Positions 53,044 through 60,898 of a DNA stretch of 64,000 bases are shown one piece after another (within the stretch, counting starts at the first letter, position 1; each line of letters starts with the position of its first letter). Source of the DNA: Streptomyces mobaraensis (GTDB lineage: Bacteria > Actinomycetota > Actinomycetes > Streptomycetales > Streptomycetaceae). Below the pieces are notes generated by a model. The model was given only the letters and a program-made list of their open reading frames with translations, made no database searches and was not told the DNA's origin. Location of the stretch: NCBI RefSeq assembly GCF_020099395.1, contig NZ_CP083590.1, forward strand, positions 744,001 to 808,000, given 5' to 3'. The position numbers and the translations under genes are program-made.

Positions 53044-53793
53044 TTACGCGCGGCGCGGGCGCCGCGTCAGCGTGTAGCCGCCGATGGCCGCGAGCGCGCC
53101 GAGCACGGCGCCGCCGACGGTCCACACCCAGCGGTCCGACCACCAGCCGCCGTTCCAGCCGTCCTCCGGCTCGGCGACGGCACCGGCGTGCAGCGGCGCA
53201 CCGAGCTCGCCGCCCTCGGCGTACTTGCCGCCGGCGTCCTCGGCGGTCGCCTCCACCTCGGCGTGCACGGGCAGGCCCATGTCCTGGTCCGGCCCGTCGG
53301 CGACGGTGAGACGGACGTAGTACGCGCCGGGCAGCGGGTCGTTCGACCAGCGCTCGGCGTACGGGCGGACGACGCGCAGGGTGCAGCTGAGGGTGACGGT
53401 GGTGTCCTGCTGGGACACCCGCTTCGTCCGCTCCCCCTCGGCGCAGGCCTGGCGGCGGCGCAGGCCGTCGAAGACGTCCAGCTGCCAGGTGGCGGCGCCG
53501 TGCCGGGCGCTCGCCTCCGGCAGCCTGACCGTCGCCTTGGCGGTGGGCCGCTGGCCGGCTCCGGCCGGGAACTGCCAGTAGAGGTAGTCACCGGTCGTAC
53601 CGTCGGCGGTGGCCTTCTGGTCCTGCTTGACGGCCGTGGCGGTACGGAACGACGTACCCGCCTCGGTCGGGTCGCCGTTCTGGCCCTTGGTCCCGGCGGG
53701 GGCGTCGGCCGCCGCCGCGCCGGAGACGGTGAACAGCGCGCCGGCCGCGAGCAGCCCGGCGGTCAGGGTCCGTGCGACTCTTGTGACACGCAT
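53044..53793 (-). CDS. Membrane-anchored secreted partner of the VWA protein
   Basis: 249 aa. Signal peptide ~1-29. A beta-rich extracellular region (GTSFRTATAVKQDQKATADG, DYLYWQFPAGAGQRPTAKATVRLPE, WQLDVFDGLRRRQACAEGE, YYVRLTVADG) is followed by one C-terminal TM (VWTVGGAVLGALAAIGGYTLTRRPRR). Its ATG overlaps the VWA stop (TGATG). The same DYLYW/GxxxTA pattern occurs in the C-terminal half of the VWA protein, so the two share an ectodomain type. Function unknown; a cell-surface complex is likely. Confidence 0.82.
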   Translation of the reverse strand: MRVTRVARTLTAGLLAAGALFTVSGAAAADAPAGTKGQNGDPTEAGTSFRTATAVKQDQKATADGTTGDYLYWQFPAGAGQRPTAKATVRLPEASARHGAATWQLDVFDGLRRRQACAEGERTKRVSQQDTTVTLSCTLRVVRPYAERWSNDPLPGAYYVRLTVADGPDQDMGLPVHAEVEATAEDAGGKYAEGGELGAPLHAGAVAEPEDGWNGGWWSDRWVWTVGGAVLGALAAIGGYTLTRRPRRA

Positions 53794-55061
53794 CAGTTGG
53801 CCCTCCAGATCGCGACGCGCCAGCGGGCCAGCCAGCCCCACAGCAGACCGGCGACCAGGCCGGTGACGACGAGGACGGCGAGCAGCACCCAGCCCCGCCC
53901 GAGGCCGAAGGCGGCCATGTCGGACGGCTTGTCCGGGGACTTCACCAGGTCGACGGCGAGCTCGACGGGCAGGCCGGGGTCGCGCTTGACGGAGGCCGGC
54001 GCGGAGAAGGAGTGCGAGACCTCCAGGCAGACCGTGCGCGCGTCGGCGTCGTCCTTGGAGTCCTTCTTGCCCTTGCTCACGGGGTAGCGCAGGCCGGAGG
54101 ACATCACGTCGGTGCGCCCGTTGCCGGCGTCGGAGCCGCGGACGAGCTCCTGGCCGCCGTCGCCGACGGCTCTGACGAGGATGCCGTAGTCGCGGTCGAC
54201 GGGCCGGTCGGCGCCGACGCTCGCGGCGGCGCGCAGCTCCTGGCCGGGCTTGACCTTGACCTTGTACCAGCGGTGCTCGCCGAAGGTCTCGCGGTCGGTC
54301 CACACACCGGCGCCGATCTCGGGCGCCGCGGAGCAGGCGTCCGCGCCCTTCGTGGGCTTGGGCGTGTCGTCGACGGGGGTCTCGGAGCGGCGGACGAGCT
54401 GCTTGATGCGGCCTGACAGCTCCTTGGTGTGCCGCACGGTGGTGTACGTGCCGCCGGTGGCCTCGGCGATGCAGGTGAGCTGCTCGCGGGTCTTGTCGTC
54501 GTGCGCCAGGCCGAGCGTGTCGATGGTCAGGTGCGTGCCCTTGGCGGCGAGTTCGCGCGCCACGTCACACGGGTCGGGCTGGCCGCAGGAGTCCTCGCCG
54601 TCGGTGATGAGGACGATGCGGCGGGTGCCGCCGTCCTCGCCGAGGTCCTGGTCGGCGCCGCGCAGGGCGTAGCCGATGGGCGTCCAGCCGGTGGGGCGCA
54701 GGGTGGCGACGGCCGCCTTGGCCTCGGTCCGGTCGACCTGGCCGACGCGGTACTCCTGCTTGCTGTCGCGGCAGCCGATCGCCTTGTCGTCCCCGGGGTA
54801 GTGGGCGCCGAGCGTACGGATGCCGAGCCGCACGCCCTCCGGGGTGGCGTCGATGACCTCGTTGAACGCCTGCTGGGCGGCGGCCATGCGGGACTGGCCG
54901 TCGATGTCGCGGGCCCGCATCGAACCGCTGACGTCGAGTACGAGCTCGACCTTCGGGGAATCCTTGGAGGGCCCGTCGGCGGCCTGCGCCGGCACGACAC
55001 CTCCGGCCAGTGCGGCGAGCAGAGCGCAGGCGCCCGCCGCCAGCCGTCTTGTGATGATCAT
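53793..55061 (-). CDS. Secreted, membrane-anchored VWA-domain protein
   Basis: 422 aa. Signal peptide ~1-28. The von Willebrand A domain (~38-220) has a perfect MIDAS start, DVSGSM (D43, S45, S47), with the second Thr and the later TDGEDSC. A beta ectodomain (~235-380) follows, with DRETFGEHRWYKVKVKPGQELRAAASVG. A C-terminal TM (GRGWVLLAVLVVTGLVAGLLWGWLA) anchors it. VWA proteins bind protein ligands through a metal ion. It is translated just before its overlapping partner. Confidence 0.9.
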   Translation of the reverse strand: MIITRRLAAGACALLAALAGGVVPAQAADGPSKDSPKVELVLDVSGSMRARDIDGQSRMAAAQQAFNEVIDATPEGVRLGIRTLGAHYPGDDKAIGCRDSKQEYRVGQVDRTEAKAAVATLRPTGWTPIGYALRGADQDLGEDGGTRRIVLITDGEDSCGQPDPCDVARELAAKGTHLTIDTLGLAHDDKTREQLTCIAEATGGTYTTVRHTKELSGRIKQLVRRSETPVDDTPKPTKGADACSAAPEIGAGVWTDRETFGEHRWYKVKVKPGQELRAAASVGADRPVDRDYGILVRAVGDGGQELVRGSDAGNGRTDVMSSGLRYPVSKGKKDSKDDADARTVCLEVSHSFSAPASVKRDPGLPVELAVDLVKSPDKPSDMAAFGLGRGWVLLAVLVVTGLVAGLLWGWLARWRVAIWRAN

Positions 55062-55216: not shown

Positions 55217-56002
55217 TCACAGCCCCTGCTGCTTGGACTGCTTGAGCTTGGTGATGTCGATCGTCTGGTCGGCCGGCGGCGCCTTGGCCGCGACCGGCTT
55301 GTCCCAGTCCGTCAGGGTGGTGACGCTACCGTCCTTGGAGTCCTCGATCTTCAGCGGGTAGGGCTTGCCGGTGGTGGCGACGCTGATGGTGGTGCCCTTG
55401 GCGCTGATCGGGACGGCCTGCTGCCCGTCGACGGTGGTGACCGCCCCCTTGGTGATGGTCTCCGTGCCGCCGTCGTCCTGGCCCATCTGCGCCTGCATCG
55501 CCGCCAGGTTGCACGCCCTCGTCATGCCGCGGAGGTTGGGGTCGCTGGTGGGACCGGAGACGTAGCGGCCCTTGAACAGCTCGGCCGCCTGCGGGTTGGC
55601 CTTCGACGCCCACAGCTTCTCGTCGGCCTTCAGCCACACCTTGTCACCGAGTTTGATCACCTCGGCGGATCCGGTGGTGGGGGTGGCGATGGTGCCCGCG
55701 CAGTTGCCCTGCTTGTCCATGGCGAGGTCGACCTTCATCTGCTCGCCGTTCTTGCTGCCGGACGCCTTGAAGCGGAGCGAGCCCGCGTTCCTCAGCTCCG
55801 TCTTGGCCTTGTCCGATATCTCCTTGCCGGACAGCTTCTCCACGCCGTTGCCGGACGCCGCGTCCTTCGCGGGCGCGGAATCGGCCGCCTTGGCGGGCTT
55901 CTTGTCCCCCTTGTCGTCCTTGCTGTCGCTGCCACAGGCGGAGAGTCCCAGGACCGCCGCCATGCCGACGGCGGTCATGGCGATGCCGTGCTTGCGCTTC
56001 AT
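55217..56002 (-). CDS. LppX/LprG-like lipoprotein
   Basis: 261 aa. Lipobox LSAC with the lipidated Cys at residue 23, then a Lys/Asp/Ala-rich tether. The body alternates strands and has GSLRFKASGSKNGEQMKVDLAMD, VIKLGDKVWLKAD, AVTTVDGQQAVPIS and YPLKIEDSKDGSVTTLTDW, the antiparallel sheet pattern of the LppX/LprAFG group that carries lipids. The exact cargo is unknown. A basic spacer of ~155 bp separates it from the VWA gene; it is not obviously in an operon. Confidence 0.82.
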   Translation of the reverse strand: MKRKHGIAMTAVGMAAVLGLSACGSDSKDDKGDKKPAKAADSAPAKDAASGNGVEKLSGKEISDKAKTELRNAGSLRFKASGSKNGEQMKVDLAMDKQGNCAGTIATPTTGSAEVIKLGDKVWLKADEKLWASKANPQAAELFKGRYVSGPTSDPNLRGMTRACNLAAMQAQMGQDDGGTETITKGAVTTVDGQQAVPISAKGTTISVATTGKPYPLKIEDSKDGSVTTLTDWDKPVAAKAPPADQTIDITKLKQSKQQGL

Positions 56003-56075: not shown

Positions 56076-56930
56076 TTACGCTCCGGGCGCCCACGACGGC
56101 GGCTCCGGGGCCGCCATGGCGTGCACGCGCTCGGTGACGGCCTTGGCGAGCTGCTCGCGCTCCTCGGGGGCGAGGCCGTCGAGGAGCGCGAGGGTGACGT
56201 CCCGTCCGTCCGCGCCGGGCCGGTCGCCGGACGGCGGGTGCGCGGTCACCCACTCCAGGACCTGCCGCACCTCCTCGGGTCGGTGCAGCAGCCAGAGCGC
56301 GGCCAGCGCGTCGGGGCCGGTGCGGACGGCCTGGAGGTAGAACTCGTACTCCTCGCGCCGCTGCGGCGACCACAGCAACGGCGGGGCGCCCTTGTCCGCC
56401 GGGCGCGGCGGCTCGGCGGCGGGCTGGGCGGCGGCGAGGCAGCAGGCCAGCCCGGTGGCGTCCACCGGCTGCGGCTGGGCGAGCAGTTCGAGGAGGTGCT
56501 GGGCCGACGCCTGCTCGGCGGCGGTCTCGGCGCGGGCGGCCAGGGTCTGGAACCGCCGGTCCAAGTGGCCGACGACGGCCGCCCAGCAGCCCTCCGGCGG
56601 GCCGCCGCCGAGCACCGCGCGGGCCGGGTCGGCGACCCACCAGGCGACCTGGAGGGCCGCGGGCGCGCAGCCCGGCGGCAGTGCCCAGGTGCCGGCGCGG
56701 GGCGCGGTGTCGACGAGGTACGTCTCGCGGTAGCCGCCGAACGCGGCGCGGACGAACGAGCCGCGCCCACCGGGCTCGCAGATGGTCCCGCCCTCGCCGT
56801 CCAGCAGCACCAGGGCCTGTTGGCCGGGCTGCGCGAGGCGGAAGCGGAGGAGCTCCCCGAAGGGGCTGCGGGTCCCCCGGCGCCACGGCGGGGTGTCCGT
56901 CACGGTGGCCGGGTACGGGGTGAGGGTCAT
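56076..56930 (-). CDS. Hypothetical protein of the cyclase/NTPase module
   Basis: 284 aa from ATG 56930, with GGAGAGAG just upstream. The N-terminal ~110 residues (PFGELLRFRLAQPGQQALVLLDGEGGTI, YLVDTAPRAGTWALPPG, ALQVAWWVADPARAVL) look like a beta-rich domain resembling SPFH/band-7-type folds, but this is by eye. The rest is helical (HLDRRFQTLAARAETAAEQAS, EVRQVLEWVTAHPP, LLDGLAPEEREQLAKAVTERV). No catalytic motif seen. It lies 32 bp after the P-loop protein gene on the same strand and is probably co-transcribed with it. Confidence 0.72.
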   Translation of the reverse strand: MTLTPYPATVTDTPPWRRGTRSPFGELLRFRLAQPGQQALVLLDGEGGTICEPGGRGSFVRAAFGGYRETYLVDTAPRAGTWALPPGCAPAALQVAWWVADPARAVLGGGPPEGCWAAVVGHLDRRFQTLAARAETAAEQASAQHLLELLAQPQPVDATGLACCLAAAQPAAEPPRPADKGAPPLLWSPQRREEYEFYLQAVRTGPDALAALWLLHRPEEVRQVLEWVTAHPPSGDRPGADGRDVTLALLDGLAPEEREQLAKAVTERVHAMAAPEPPSWAPGA

Positions 56931-56962: not shown

Positions 56963-59125
56963 TCAGAGGGCCTGGCGCCAGGCGGCCAGTGCCTCGGCCG
57001 CCCGCCGGCCGCCGGGGGCCGGCCGGGCCGCCTCGAACGCGGTGAGCAGCCGCAGCGCGCCGCCGCGCGGCGCGGCGCCCAGCCGGTCGGCGAGGCGCTC
57101 GACGAAGGGGGCGCGGCGGGGGTCGTCGGCCGCGCGGCGCTGCCAGTCCAGGAGCGCGGCGCGCACGGCGGGGAAGGTGCCGGGTTCGGCGAGCGCGCAC
57201 CGGATCAGTTCCAGGCCGGGCGGGTCCTCGCCGGGGCGGCCGCCGTCCCGGGTGCCGAGCAGGTGGCGGGTCCACCACTCGGCGGGCTCGCGCGCCGCGG
57301 CGGCGGTGCGCAGCAGCTGCGCGGTGGCGGTGCAGGCGGCCTGCCGGGTGGCGTCGCCGGCGCGGCACCAGGACACCAGCCCGTCGAGCAGGGCGGCCCG
57401 GCCGGCCGGTTCGGCGAACAGGGAGAGCAGCGCCCGGCGGACGGCGGAGGCGACGGCTCCCGTCCCGTCGCGCGGCCCGTCACAGACGGTCCGCAACAGG
57501 GTGAGCGCGGTCCCGGGGCGGGCCAGCCCGAACTCGGTGGCGCAGGCGAGCGCGACCGTGCAGCGCCGGGAGACCGACGCCTGCCGGCTCCAGCCGCGCA
57601 GCCGGGCCTTGACGGCGGTGGCGAGCACGGGGTCGGTGGAGGCGGCGCCGAGGGCGCGGGCGGCCAGCCGCCAGTCCGCGGGCCGGGCGGACGCGGCCAG
57701 GTCCTCGACCGGGCCGAGGGCCCGGCGCCCGGAGCTCCACTGGGCACACTGGCCCAGGACGAACCCGGCGCGGTCGCCGCGCCCGTGCTCCGACGGCGTG
57801 GTGCCGAGCCACTCCACCAACAGCTCGGCCGCCTCGGGGTGTTCGCGCCACACGTGCTCCAGGACCGCGCGGCCCTGGAGGTGCCGGGTGAACGCCACGG
57901 GCCGGGTGAGATAGCTGTAGGCGGAGGTGGTGTGCACCTCGGCGGGGGCCACGTACGCGCCGATCGCCTCCAGCCGTTCGGTGCGGGACCGGCGGAAGAC
58001 GGCCCGCGGCGCCTCCTCCGCGTCCGCGTCCGGGTCGGGGGCGGGGCCGCCGAGCCGCCCGCCGGCGATCCGCAGCAGGCGCCCGGCCTCCTCCTCGACC
58101 AGCGTCTGGTCGAAGTGCTCGAAGACGCAGGCGGCGAGCAGCAGGGCGAGGTCCTCCGGGCTGTCGCGCAGCGCGTCGAGCAGCCTCGGGGCCCGGCCGG
58201 CCGCGTGGAAGCTCAGGTGCTCGCGGACGATCTCCGGGTCCGCGCCCCGCCGGACCACCCGGACGATCTCGGCGGCGATCTCGACGACCTGGGCGGGGCG
58301 CAGGCCGGGCTGCAGGGTCTCGTCGAGCAGCCCGGGCGGCAGGGCGGCGAGCGCGGGGGCGACGTCGGCCGGGCCGTCGAGGACGGCGGCCAGCCGGGCG
58401 TCGAGGACGGCGCGCGGCTCCGGCGGCAGGGCCCGGACCGGCGGGGTGTGCAGGGTGTCGCCGAGGTGCGCCAGGACGGCCGGGGTGCAGGGGATGACGA
58501 CGACCATGCGGGCGTCGGCCCGTTCGAGCCGGGCGCGGAGTCCGTCCAGGGCGATGGTGTCGAGTGCGGTGAGCCGCGGTTCGAGGAGCCCGTCGGCGAG
58601 GTAGCCGCGGGCCGGGGCGGCGCCGGGGGCCCAGGTGGTGAGGTCGGTGTCGGAGTCGAGGGCCCGGAGCGCGAAGCAACCGGTCTGCCGGTGGAGGAGG
58701 TTGAGGGCGGCGGTGCGGCGGCCGGTGCCGTCCTGTCCGGCGAGGAAGAGGAGGCGGTCGTCGCGCAGCCGGCCGAGGGCGTCCGCGAACCAGGCGGGCT
58801 CGGCGAAGCCCTCCAGGGCGAGGGCGGTCCGCTCGGCGGGGATGTCGCCTTCGCGCGGCTCGACGCCGTCGCCGCGCGGGGCTGCCGGCTCGCCGTCGCC
58901 GGCGGCGTCGTAGTGCTGGCCGCCGCGGACCAGGTCGGAGATGTTCAGGAAGCCGCGGTTGTCCCAGATGTTGACGACCTGGAAGCGGCGGCCGAACTCC
59001 TCGGCCGCCTGCTCGCCGAGGTCGGGGGCGGGGTCGGGGCCGGTAGCGGGCTCGGGGCCGCCTTGCGGCGGTGCGGCGTCGGAGGCGGGCGCCTCCGGCT
59101 CGTCGACGAGGACGGATTCGCTCAC
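56963..59125 (-). CDS. 720-aa P-loop/helical-repeat protein with NRGFLN...GGQH motif
   Basis: An acidic disordered lead (~1-45) precedes the segment VVNIWDNRGFLN (to residue 61) and RGGQHYD (to ~73). A P-loop variant AGQDGTGRRTAA follows (G130-T138), with Arg in place of the usual Lys. Then come ~560 mostly helical residues resembling HEAT/TPR-type repeats (ALLDGLVSWCRAGDATRQAACTATA, AALLDWQRRAADDPRRAPF). This plan resembles STAND-like NTPases of actinobacterial conflict systems. The NRGFLN/GGQH segment recurs at the C-terminus of the cyclase-like protein encoded just upstream (GTG/ATG overlap), so the two probably interact. No Walker B was found. Confidence 0.82.
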   Translation of the reverse strand: MSESVLVDEPEAPASDAAPPQGGPEPATGPDPAPDLGEQAAEEFGRRFQVVNIWDNRGFLNISDLVRGGQHYDAAGDGEPAAPRGDGVEPREGDIPAERTALALEGFAEPAWFADALGRLRDDRLLFLAGQDGTGRRTAALNLLHRQTGCFALRALDSDTDLTTWAPGAAPARGYLADGLLEPRLTALDTIALDGLRARLERADARMVVVIPCTPAVLAHLGDTLHTPPVRALPPEPRAVLDARLAAVLDGPADVAPALAALPPGLLDETLQPGLRPAQVVEIAAEIVRVVRRGADPEIVREHLSFHAAGRAPRLLDALRDSPEDLALLLAACVFEHFDQTLVEEEAGRLLRIAGGRLGGPAPDPDADAEEAPRAVFRRSRTERLEAIGAYVAPAEVHTTSAYSYLTRPVAFTRHLQGRAVLEHVWREHPEAAELLVEWLGTTPSEHGRGDRAGFVLGQCAQWSSGRRALGPVEDLAASARPADWRLAARALGAASTDPVLATAVKARLRGWSRQASVSRRCTVALACATEFGLARPGTALTLLRTVCDGPRDGTGAVASAVRRALLSLFAEPAGRAALLDGLVSWCRAGDATRQAACTATAQLLRTAAAAREPAEWWTRHLLGTRDGGRPGEDPPGLELIRCALAEPGTFPAVRAALLDWQRRAADDPRRAPFVERLADRLGAAPRGGALRLLTAFEAARPAPGGRRAAEALAAWRQAL

Positions 59126-60006
59126 CGGCCCGCTCCCCGTGCGTCGTCCCGCGGGTCGGCGCCGAAGGAGACGTGCTGGCCGCCCTCCACCGAGCCGTTG
59201 TTGAGGAAGCCGCGGTTGCCCTGGCTGTTGATGGTGGTGGTGCCGCGGTGTGCGGCGGGTGCGGGCCGGTCGCGCCGCTCGGGTACGGGCGCGGTCGCGG
59301 GCGCCGGCTCCTCGGCCTCCGGCCGTTCGCCGAGGATCCGGCGGTCGTAGAGGTTGCCGGAGGGCGCGGGCACGTACAGCCAGGCGAGTTGCTGAAAGTT
59401 CTTGCCGGCGACGGTGGCCGGCACCTCGATGAACTGGTCCGGGTGGCGGCGGGTGTAGCCGGAGAGGACCGCGTCCTCGAAGACGCGCTGCGAGAGGATC
59501 GCGGCGACCTGGGTGATGCTCTCGCTGGAGGCCGCGAGGATGGCGCGGACGGGCCGGGAGTCGAGCAGCCGGTGGGTGTCGTTGCGCGGGGTGCCGTTGC
59601 CGTCGCCGGGGGCGCCGGAGTCGGGCAGCGGTCCGACGTGGAGGCTGGCCCGGAGCCGGACGCGGCCGGTCGCGGTGGCGTGGATGTTGTAGTCGGTGAG
59701 GACTTCCTGGAGTTCGTGCAGGAAGGGGTGGATGACCCGGGGCAGGGCGACGGGGTCGAAGCCCATGGCGAAGCCGTCGCCGGTGTTGTTGGCGAACTTC
59801 CGCTCCAGCCAGAGCTGTTCCAGGCCCGAGCGGGCGAACGCCTGCCCGAGGAGCTGGGGGATGACGGTGGTGAGGGACGCGTGCTCGGCGGCGGGCCGGC
59901 CGGTGAAGTCCTTCGCGTCCACGGCGAGGATCCCCCGGTAGGGCGGCAGGTCGCGGCTGACGCTCCAGGGGGCCGGGCCGGTGGCGGGGGTGTCCGTGAC
60001 GGACAT
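59122..60006 (-). CDS. Class III nucleotide-cyclase-like protein with C-terminal NRGFLN motif
   Basis: 294 aa, ATG with GAGGAG 8 nt upstream. Residues ~22-225 have the cyclase/GGDEF-like core: GILAVDAKDFTGRP with Asp30, NNTGDGFAMGF with Asp77 (the two metal-binding Asp of class III cyclases), RVRLRASLHVGPL, THRLLDSRPVRAIL and VFEDAVLSGY. I could not identify the transition-state Asn/Arg with certainty, so activity is not assured. After a Pro/Ala linker the C-terminus has INSQGNRGFLN (259-269) and EGGQHVSFG (274-282), matching residues ~50-73 of the next protein. Its stop overlaps that gene's start. Confidence 0.82.
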   Translation of the reverse strand: MSVTDTPATGPAPWSVSRDLPPYRGILAVDAKDFTGRPAAEHASLTTVIPQLLGQAFARSGLEQLWLERKFANNTGDGFAMGFDPVALPRVIHPFLHELQEVLTDYNIHATATGRVRLRASLHVGPLPDSGAPGDGNGTPRNDTHRLLDSRPVRAILAASSESITQVAAILSQRVFEDAVLSGYTRRHPDQFIEVPATVAGKNFQQLAWLYVPAPSGNLYDRRILGERPEAEEPAPATAPVPERRDRPAPAAHRGTTTINSQGNRGFLNNGSVEGGQHVSFGADPRDDARGAGR

Positions 60007-60058
60007 AGGGGCGACTCCTCGGTGGTGAGGTCGTGCGGAAACGATCCGCGGGGTGGCA

Positions 60059-60093
60059 CCCGGCACCCCATTCCCCCCGGTAGGGGTGCCGGG
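60059..60093 (-). terminator. Hairpin in the leader of the cyclase-like gene
   Basis: CCCGGCACCCC (60059-60069) and GGGGTGCCGGG (60083-60093) pair over 11 bp with a 13-nt loop, about 50 nt before the cyclase start. It could end Crp transcription or act as an attenuator of the cyclase operon. Confidence 0.55.
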
Positions 60094-60128
60094 CTCGCCT
60101 CGGATCCTTCTGGAGTCGCGTGGTTCGG

Positions 60129-60168
60129 TGTGCACCATGAGTGCACAGGAAACGTGACGAGCGTCACG
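60129..60168. promoter_or_regulatory. Two palindromes upstream of the cyclase operon
   Basis: TGTGCACCATGAGTGCACA (60129-60147) is a perfect 7-bp inverted repeat with a 5-nt spacer. CGTGACGAGCGTCACG (60153-60168) is a GTGAC-type palindrome overlapping the end of the Crp-like gene and closely resembles the site upstream of that gene. Both lie 120-165 bp before the cyclase start, suitable for Crp-type activation or repression. Confidence 0.7.
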
Positions 60169-60868
60169 CGTCCGCGTACGGCCCGTCCGTCACAGGGGCC
60201 GCCGCCCGCAGGGCGTCGAGGTCGTGGACGACGACAACGCCGCGCTCGGCGGTGACCACCCGGGTGCCGATCTCGCCCAGGGCCGTGCTGACGGTGTTGC
60301 GGGACACCCCGAGGTACTGGGCGAGTTCGGTGCGGGTGACCGACAGGTGCGCCCCGTCGCCGGTCCGCTCGCCGTACGCCGCCTCGGCGAGGGCGAGCAG
60401 CGCGTGGGCGACCCGCTCCCGTGAACAGCAGCCCCCGCGGGCGCGGTCGGACTGCCGCAGCCGGGTGAGGGCGTGCCGGGTGAGGACCGGCGACAGGTCG
60501 TGCCGCTCGACGAAGGCCCGGAACCGCCGCCCCTCCACCACGACGACGGTGACGTCCCCTATGGCCGACACGGACGCCAGCCGCCGCTCGCTCTCCTCCA
60601 GCACCGCGGCCTCGCCCACCACGTCACCGGCACCCCGGAACGCCAACACCCGTATGGTGCCGTCGCGTTCCACCCGGGTCACCTTGACCACGCCCTCGAC
60701 CAGGGCGAGTACGTGCGTCCCCGTGTCGCCCTGGCGCAGCAGCGTCTCACCGGCCCGGTGCCGGCGCGTCCGCCCCTCGTCGAGCAGCCGCTTCCATAAC
60801 GGCTCGCCGGCCAGCCGGGTGAAGGTGACGCCCAGCGCCGGGTCGTGCCGCTCCCTCTTTCCGTCCAT
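60164..60868 (-). CDS. Crp/Fnr-family regulator with cyclic-nucleotide contact residues
   Basis: 234 aa from ATG 60868. N-terminal cNMP-binding barrel (RHRAGETLLRQGDTGTHVLALVEGVVKVTR). The phosphate-binding cassette reads VGEAAVLEESERRLASV; aligned with E. coli CRP it keeps the Glu (E86) and Arg (R96) that contact cAMP, while the next Ser is Leu. A hinge helix and a winged helix with LSVTRTELAQYLGVSRNTVSTALGEI follow. CCSRE has two adjacent Cys, but no Fnr iron-sulfur pattern. A TGTGA-type site lies just before it and another before the cyclase-like gene downstream, so it likely regulates both. Confidence 0.92.
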   Translation of the reverse strand: MDGKRERHDPALGVTFTRLAGEPLWKRLLDEGRTRRHRAGETLLRQGDTGTHVLALVEGVVKVTRVERDGTIRVLAFRGAGDVVGEAAVLEESERRLASVSAIGDVTVVVVEGRRFRAFVERHDLSPVLTRHALTRLRQSDRARGGCCSRERVAHALLALAEAAYGERTGDGAHLSVTRTELAQYLGVSRNTVSTALGEIGTRVVTAERGVVVVHDLDALRAAAPVTDGPYADA

Positions 60869-60882
60869 GAAGGGACTGTAGA

Positions 60883-60898
60883 TGTAACGGGCGTCACA
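60883..60898. promoter_or_regulatory. Crp-type palindrome before the Crp-like gene
   Basis: TGTAACGGGCGTCACA (60883-60898); its complement TGTGACGCCCGTTACA fits the Crp consensus TGTGA-N6-TCACA with one mismatch. It starts 15 bp before the start codon, so binding would block transcription initiation (autorepression, inferred). Confidence 0.75.

Follow-up and report, generated by a model that had tools for sequence, protein, structure and literature searches.

We describe an operon of four genes on the minus strand of a 64,000-nucleotide stretch of Streptomyces mobaraensis DNA (contig NZ_CP083590.1, positions 744,001 to 808,000; hereafter 'the window'), which encodes, in order, a Crp-like regulator, a class III nucleotide-cyclase-like protein, a P-loop/helical-repeat protein (hereafter 'the NTPase') and a protein of a family that we call f3. 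A short motif, NRGFLN...GGQH, lies at the C-terminal end of the cyclase and again near the N-terminus of the NTPase. The reading that we favour, with a probability of about 0.5, is that the operon is a motif-coupled second-messenger switch, in which the NTPase would be the sensor and platform, the cyclase would be recruited through its motif and Crp would provide feedback, with PycTM, a membrane effector known to act against phages, taking part in relatives. This reading is supported at the sequence level by the operon itself, the pairing and covariation of the motif copies, the conserved catalytic and cyclic-nucleotide-pocket residues, the Crp-type sites, and the linkage to PycTM in relatives. 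The features, in window coordinates, are as follows.

60883..60898: Crp-type palindrome TGTAACGGGCGTCACA upstream of crp, one mismatch to GTGAN6TCAC
60164..60868, minus strand: Crp-like regulator (Pfam PF00027, cyclic-nucleotide-binding domain, 1.8e-19; PF13545, HTH_Crp_2, 3e-13)
60153..60168: Crp-type palindrome CGTGACGAGCGTCACG between crp and the cyclase gene, exact GTGAN6TCAC core, overlapping the crp stop codon
59122..60006, minus strand: class III nucleotide-cyclase-like protein, 294 amino acids (P0001)
59356..59952, minus strand: cyclase fold, residues 19-217, with D30, D77, N142 and R146 kept
59155..59241, minus strand: C-terminal motif copy of the cyclase (NRGFLN...GGQH), from the pairwise tail match and the motif profile
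56963..59125, minus strand: P-loop/helical-repeat protein, 720 amino acids (P0002), the NTPase; its GTG start overlaps the cyclase stop
58895..58984, minus strand: N-terminal motif copy of the NTPase (NRGFLN...GGQH), in a region of low model confidence
58202..58858, minus strand: AAA+/STAND-like P-loop domain, residues 90-308, Walker A GxxGTGRRTA
56966..57883, minus strand: C-terminal helical repeats of the NTPase, residues 415-720, ARM/HEAT-like by model secondary structure and ARM-type Foldseek rows
56076..56930, minus strand: operon protein P0003, 284 amino acids, family f3

The tail of the window cyclase reads INSQGNRGFLNNGSVEGGQHVSFG, followed by 12 further residues, and the NTPase carries VNIWDNRGFLNISDLVRGGQHYD starting at residue 51. 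An initial annotation of this DNA, made from the letters alone, had reported these facing-end motifs and an overlap between the two genes, and both claims hold: the motif copies lie where listed above, the genes overlap by 4 nt (GTGA), and the local score of the cyclase tail against the N-terminal tail (N-tail) of its own NTPase is 83, as compared with at most 29 for the other segments of that NTPase that were tried. A motif profile that included both sequences gave only two matches in the 7.67-Mb genome, namely the window pair (6.6e-11 and 9.1e-10; next match 0.675). When the window pair and a near relative were left out of the profile, it still recovered the window cyclase copy with 19.9 bits (E = 1.7e-5), as compared with 6.2 bits for the best of five shuffles; the NTPase copy was not among the matches listed. 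The usual motif of both proteins in Streptomyces and Kitasatospora relatives is GNxNTGxVHGGQxVxN, of which NRGFLN...GGQH is a lineage variant.

GTDB species genomes were scanned with cyclase patterns, which yielded 93 loci; the best 80 were kept and, together with the window, make up a set of 81 (individual loci are cited by L numbers). Hosts are Streptomyces, Kitasatospora, Actinoplanes, Micromonospora, Salinispora and others. Since the 80 loci were picked by cyclase patterns, the frequency of cyclase absence cannot be read from them. Profiles built from the same loci were run on open frames, with a simple codon-composition script as gene caller. By this count, the cyclase has Crp upstream in 80 of 81 loci; downstream of it lie the NTPase (74 loci), f3 or its counterpart f13 (74) and PycTM (35), the window not being among these 35. 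No other broadly conserved neighbour emerged among the loci, whose neighbours are only partly annotated. Seven fetched loci are without a usable NTPase partner (L062, L065, L076, L088, L089, L090 and L092), so the 74 cyclase–NTPase loci are the window and 73 of the 80. Wider searches listed 461 cyclase homologues, 111 NTPase homologues among 7995 candidates scored and, among the matches listed, 67 Crp relatives. When loci were found by the NTPase alone, 12 of 16 had an adjoining cyclase relative.

Pairing of the motif extends across this set. N-tails were taken in frame beginning 60 bases ahead of the cyclase stop, and hence include codons that precede the likely start; the cyclase tail matched the N-tail of its own NTPase better than the other segments tried of that NTPase in 70 of 74 loci; of the four exceptions, two have a tail cut before the motif (L037 and L049), one has a split NTPase (L046) and one is a true weak case (L035). 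The motif falls into about ten classes across lineages, patterns drawn up after inspecting the sequences, and the two partners are of one class in 69 of 70 loci (GNTQHVGEGAAVMGNVGRD with NQQRLDQGMAVMGGIAGD and NYGQVVGSGTVHGGMHQSFG with VGQVVTGGTVHGGVHQTFV are examples), a comparison that omits L046, L066, L068 and L093 and in which the sole mismatch, L053, is an anchoring error. In several of the remote loci found by the NTPase alone, the partners match in yet other motifs (FGGGYVAGDQHGVSGGRVTGDV with FSGGYVAGDQHGVSGGRVTGDV, for instance). Among 49 non-redundant loci, the two copies covary with a Mantel r of 0.83 and, controlling for cyclase and NTPase distance, a partial r of 0.438 (p = 0.0001); for the GGQ class alone (33 loci), the partial r is 0.415 (p = 0.0001), both tests leaving some shared ancestry in. 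For 12 hand-chosen representatives, mean scores were 70.8 with the own partner vs 36.1 for crossed pairs (p = 1e-5), and the own partner ranked first in 10 of the 12 rows and in 9 of the 12 columns. The initial annotation had tied its linkage idea to homologues that keep the motif and do not vary it independently; we find that the motif is kept and that the two copies vary together.

The genome search for the motif that the same annotation proposed gave close pairs. The GGQ motif occurs in 9 of 150 Streptomyces genomes with 19 hits, 18 of which form pairs 101-426 bp apart on the same strand in different open frames; gene ends were not checked for each. Note that the window pair and that of genome G022 match by construction, because the profile held their rows. 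The lone hit, in genome G018, is a 96-amino-acid frame (L111:1423-1710) that contains STGTVHGGQHMHTHHEDG and, further on, repeats; the motif profile hits this genome nowhere else.

The motif would also have lost its proposed meaning if it were buried in an ordinary domain. In the AlphaFold2 models it sits in low-confidence tails: the per-residue confidence (pLDDT) of the NTPase copy is below 50, and the cyclase copy, which shows neither helix nor strand, has block means of 46-72. In many relatives (for example, P0133 and P0156), a second Gly/Asp-rich repeat tail follows the motif (of the kind GGDYVGGNK...GNQGDTVHGDK); it is not seen in the window and is possibly another beta-repeat.

Class III cyclases work as dimers. 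In the cyclase family, D30, D77 and R146 are kept in 74 of 74 loci and in all eight remote relatives (82/82), and N142 in 74 of 74 loci and five of the eight (79/82); D30 and D77 supply the metal-binding aspartate pair of a class III cyclase, as in Pycsar. Pfam and NCBIfam gave nothing useful for the cyclase, with one stray weak Pfam match each in 2 of 110 cyclases, and a cyclase profile had no useful match among PDB sequences. Downstream of the first operon in L049, a second cyclase relative (L049:15598-16584; cyclase-profile match 1.9e-80) is followed by a gene of family f5.

The NTPase has an AAA+/STAND-like fold. The three NTPases scanned (those of the window, L082 and L083) had no Pfam match, NB-ARC and NACHT included, NCBIfam gave nothing useful, and an NTPase profile found no useful match among PDB sequences. 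The top Foldseek match of the model is SAMD9, a human antiviral protein (E = 2.3e-6, TM-score 0.22), which we take as a lead, with no relationship claimed. The C-terminal helical repeats are a possible sensor. A second NTPase frame lies downstream in 14 loci (L045-L048, L050-L054, L056, L060, L069, L070 and L077; L059 and L065 are also listed). These loci often carry f8, f6 (helix-turn-helix-like) and f5, and in several a small motif-bearing protein of 58-109 amino acids precedes the second NTPase (f42 in L053, L059, L065 and L070). The NTPase of L046 (L046:10917-13085) is split over two frames in the assembly; some relatives are intact.

Crp is the only one of the four window proteins with a Pfam match. 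The initial annotation stated that Crp keeps the Glu and Arg that bind cyclic nucleotides, which alignment to E. coli CRP confirms: the window protein has the equivalents of E72 and R82, which we take to be the CRP numbers of these pocket residues. Among 53 of the 66 proteins of the family, the shorter ones being omitted, the R82 equivalent is Arg in all 53, and the E72 equivalent is Glu in 45 and Asp in 8. The S128 equivalent is Asp in the window and in 45 of 53 Crp proteins. S128 of CRP reads the base (PMC11224242); Asp at this position suggests a ligand other than cAMP.

In 26 of 79 loci, an exact GTGAN6TCAC site falls in the 280 bp that surround the called cyclase start, as compared with 0.010 expected per region; with at most one mismatch allowed, 63 of 79 loci have such a site, as compared with 0.12 expected per region. 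Palindromes of the GTGAC type had been reported before both the cyclase operon and crp. The first kind is enriched across the loci; the second is present in the window, and its TGTAACGGGCGTCACA form recurs in two close relatives (L019 and L020), but sites before crp are overall no commoner than about background (at one mismatch, 10 of 65 loci). The proposed link between Crp and the cyclase is supported by the synteny and by the enriched site before the cyclase.

PycTM in relatives points to Pycsar-type signalling. The PycTM frame ends 3.1-4.0 kb past the cyclase stop in 34 of 35 loci and at 5.9 kb in one. In whole-genome searches with the Pfam family, 31 of 40 and 27 of 37 host genomes had a PycTM somewhere; the family places 34 of the 35 PycTM at the operon (the exception being L097), contig identity being judged from coordinates and strand alone. 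An extra position match in L048, at 2.2 kb, coincides with the NTPase and was taken as a coincidence on another contig. A direct Pfam test of four PycTM proteins gave matches within the cut-off (5.6e-14 to 1.1e-7), and two were also run with PADLOC. The sole PycTM found in the window genome is some 0.2 Mb distant from the operon, where it adjoins a stand-alone protein that binds cyclic nucleotide monophosphates (cNMPs), and could serve in trans; the genome has one match to the window cyclase, away from this distant pair. In the pair (L121:8007-8925; G000:C1, about 604.0-604.9 kb), the cNMP-binding protein (PF00027, 2.7e-18) directly precedes the PycTM gene (PF18967, 3.9e-20). Family f5 is carried by 19 loci, none with PycTM in the fetched stretch. 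We considered f5 as a TIR-like effector akin to PycTIR but make no such claim: the L049 member matches a PADLOC TIR effector (8.2e-7), but four others do not.

The f3 protein P0003 gave no useful match in a Pfam scan or, as a profile, against PDB sequences. Past the operon, at 53793-55061 and 55217-56002, lie genes for a vWA protein (PF13519), which has a hydrophobic segment at its N-terminus, and for a lipoprotein-like protein; both also follow the operon in L019, and a relative of the vWA-side gene occurs in six loci overall.

In the switch that we propose, the NTPase, with its eroded P-loop and helical repeats, would serve as both sensor and platform. On a trigger, it would cluster through its N-terminal motif and recruit the cyclase via the like motif at the cyclase C-terminus, a contact that is probably amyloid-like or another homotypic beta assembly. 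Clustering would bring cyclase subunits together and so activate the enzyme. The cyclic nucleotide produced would bind Crp, which would then occupy the GTGAN6TCAC site before the cyclase gene and raise expression of the operon, a positive feedback. In many relatives, the same messenger would be expected to open PycTM and elicit a Pycsar-type membrane response, presumably in defence. In a stronger form, the contact would be prion-like templating: an amyloid nucleated by the NTPase would activate the cyclase, whose product would drive both the Crp feedback and the PycTM membrane effector. We hold this form tentatively, at appreciably less than even odds; if it is true, fast-changing motif pairs would prevent cross-firing of parallel switches.

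Several observations weigh against the motif-coupled switch. In a comparison of each cyclase tail with the full set of 74 N-tails, the own partner comes first in only 7 of 74 loci (median rank 8); because relatives of the same class match equally well, specificity appears between classes. The AVMG class (11 loci) has no residual covariation (partial r 0.04, p = 0.43). The motif classes are clades on a quick cyclase tree on which the classes of L046, L053, L066, L068, L093 and the remote loci were assigned by eye (ten classes, nine changes; GGMHQ needs two); the class agreement thus amounts to about nine joint changes, not 70. AlphaFold2 predicts no regular structure for the motif. The Walker A of the NTPase is eroded, with Arg in place of Lys, which makes an NTP-driven switch doubtful, and its fold matches are middling. 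None of the three cyclases tried (P0001, P0130 and that of L083) has a PADLOC PycC match, and the positions aligned to the PycC base readers by distance from the metal Asp (A28, N73, T75 and a varied 79 or 80) differ from those of the PycC enzymes. The background for the Crp-type sites comes from whole loci, which are mostly coding, rather than from intergenic DNA. Finally, the window and its closest relatives have no adjacent PycTM.

Some of these observations fit other explanations. The motif could be an ordinary, non-amyloid docking element: by pairing beta strands, or as a small homotypic beta fold, it would keep cyclase and NTPase stably bound to each other with no templating or prion-like spread. 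Covariation and the facing positions require specific pairing only, and low model confidence is compatible with any induced fold; we nevertheless judge docking rather unlikely, given that the motif diversifies into about ten classes while pairing persists, and that a short motif at the effector C-terminus and the NTPase N-terminus is the arrangement of amyloid signalling as set out in the parts of PMC7889193 consulted. We give almost no weight to the idea that the two segments do not pair functionally and owe their likeness to biased composition or to gene conversion between neighbours. Both tails abound in Gly, Asn and Ala and the genome is GC-rich, the two copies of the remote pair L016 are nearly identical, and tails of one class match across loci as well as within them. 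However, shuffled sequences fall far short of the cyclase copy, other segments of the same NTPases score lower in nearly all loci, and many pairs share a pattern without matching at each residue, a likeness that would not be expected from recent conversion.

The remaining alternatives concern the enzyme and its output. The operon could be a physiological or developmental cNMP–Crp module, not an immune one, with the PycTM-like proteins as borrowed membrane parts. Crp is its most constant partner, the best-supported output is transcriptional, and the window operon stands without PycTM. Against this, the genes are patchily spread (in a sample of relatives, the cyclase is in 21 of 61 genomes and the NTPase in 16 of 61), 35 loci carry PycTM, 34 of them with its end at 3.1-4.0 kb from the cyclase stop, and 19 other loci have a different downstream protein, f5, never found together with PycTM in the fetched stretches; we regard a purely physiological module as improbable. 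If the cyclase were a pseudoenzyme limited to nucleotide binding, and Crp acted independently of it, this would account for the failure of every cyclase family model and for the missing base-selecting residues. The retention of both metal Asp residues and the Arg in 82 of 82 proteins and of the Asn in 79, beside a conserved Crp with an intact cNMP pocket, makes this highly improbable.

The motif-coupled switch has affinities with three described systems, which we compare here on the basis of parts of the papers cited. In bacterial amyloid signalling sequence (BASS) systems, a short motif occurs at the C-terminus of an effector and at the N-terminus of an NTPase from an adjacent or overlapping gene, in several families and in filamentous bacteria (PMC7889193); the pairs are mainly NLR–Bell, NLRs with CHAT or TIR domains being less frequent, and the same review raises the question of whether such motifs act outside NLR pathways (PMC7889193). 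The operon shares the arrangement of short motifs at the facing ends of adjacent genes, but its effector is a class III cyclase and not Bell or another described cell-death domain, the window NTPase has an eroded Walker A and no NB-ARC or NACHT Pfam match, and the operon includes Crp and often PycTM. Pycsar pairs the cyclase PycC with PycTM or PycTIR (PMC11224242). A class III cyclase fold and, in 35 of 81 loci, PycTM are held in common with it, whereas the motif-linked NTPase, the Crp transcription factor and f3 are additions, the three cyclases tried have no PycC match, the base-reading residues differ, and the window operon lacks PycTM. In iSTAND and iSTAND2 (Kaur et al. 2020, 2021), an NTPase with eroded motifs is accompanied by an adaptor copy on a nearby signalling enzyme, sometimes a cNMP cyclase; adjacent adaptor copies are the most alike, the adaptors are domains of small size, most of them helical, and MoxR-vWA forms the core (PMC7159879, PMC8195603). 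As in these systems with their effector-associated domains (EADs), NTPase and signalling enzyme share an adaptor element here, but it is a short motif for which no fold is predicted, although one may form on binding, and Crp, f3 and PycTM are the conserved genes beside it among the neighbours annotated.

Because a defining feature of each known system is missing or open here, we read the operon as combining known principles. A description of it was not found in the open-access literature searched; most subscription papers, including the original BASS paper, lay outside that search. Overall, the interpretation put forward in the initial annotation is partly supported.

The data suggest an undescribed alarm switch of soil actinobacteria that is assembled through motif matching. 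If this is true, the logic of amyloid signalling would be placed before a second-messenger enzyme, and a Pycsar-like cyclase would gain both a candidate sensor and feedback at the level of transcription. Since the motifs fall into matched classes, the specificity of the switch is directly testable by motif exchange.

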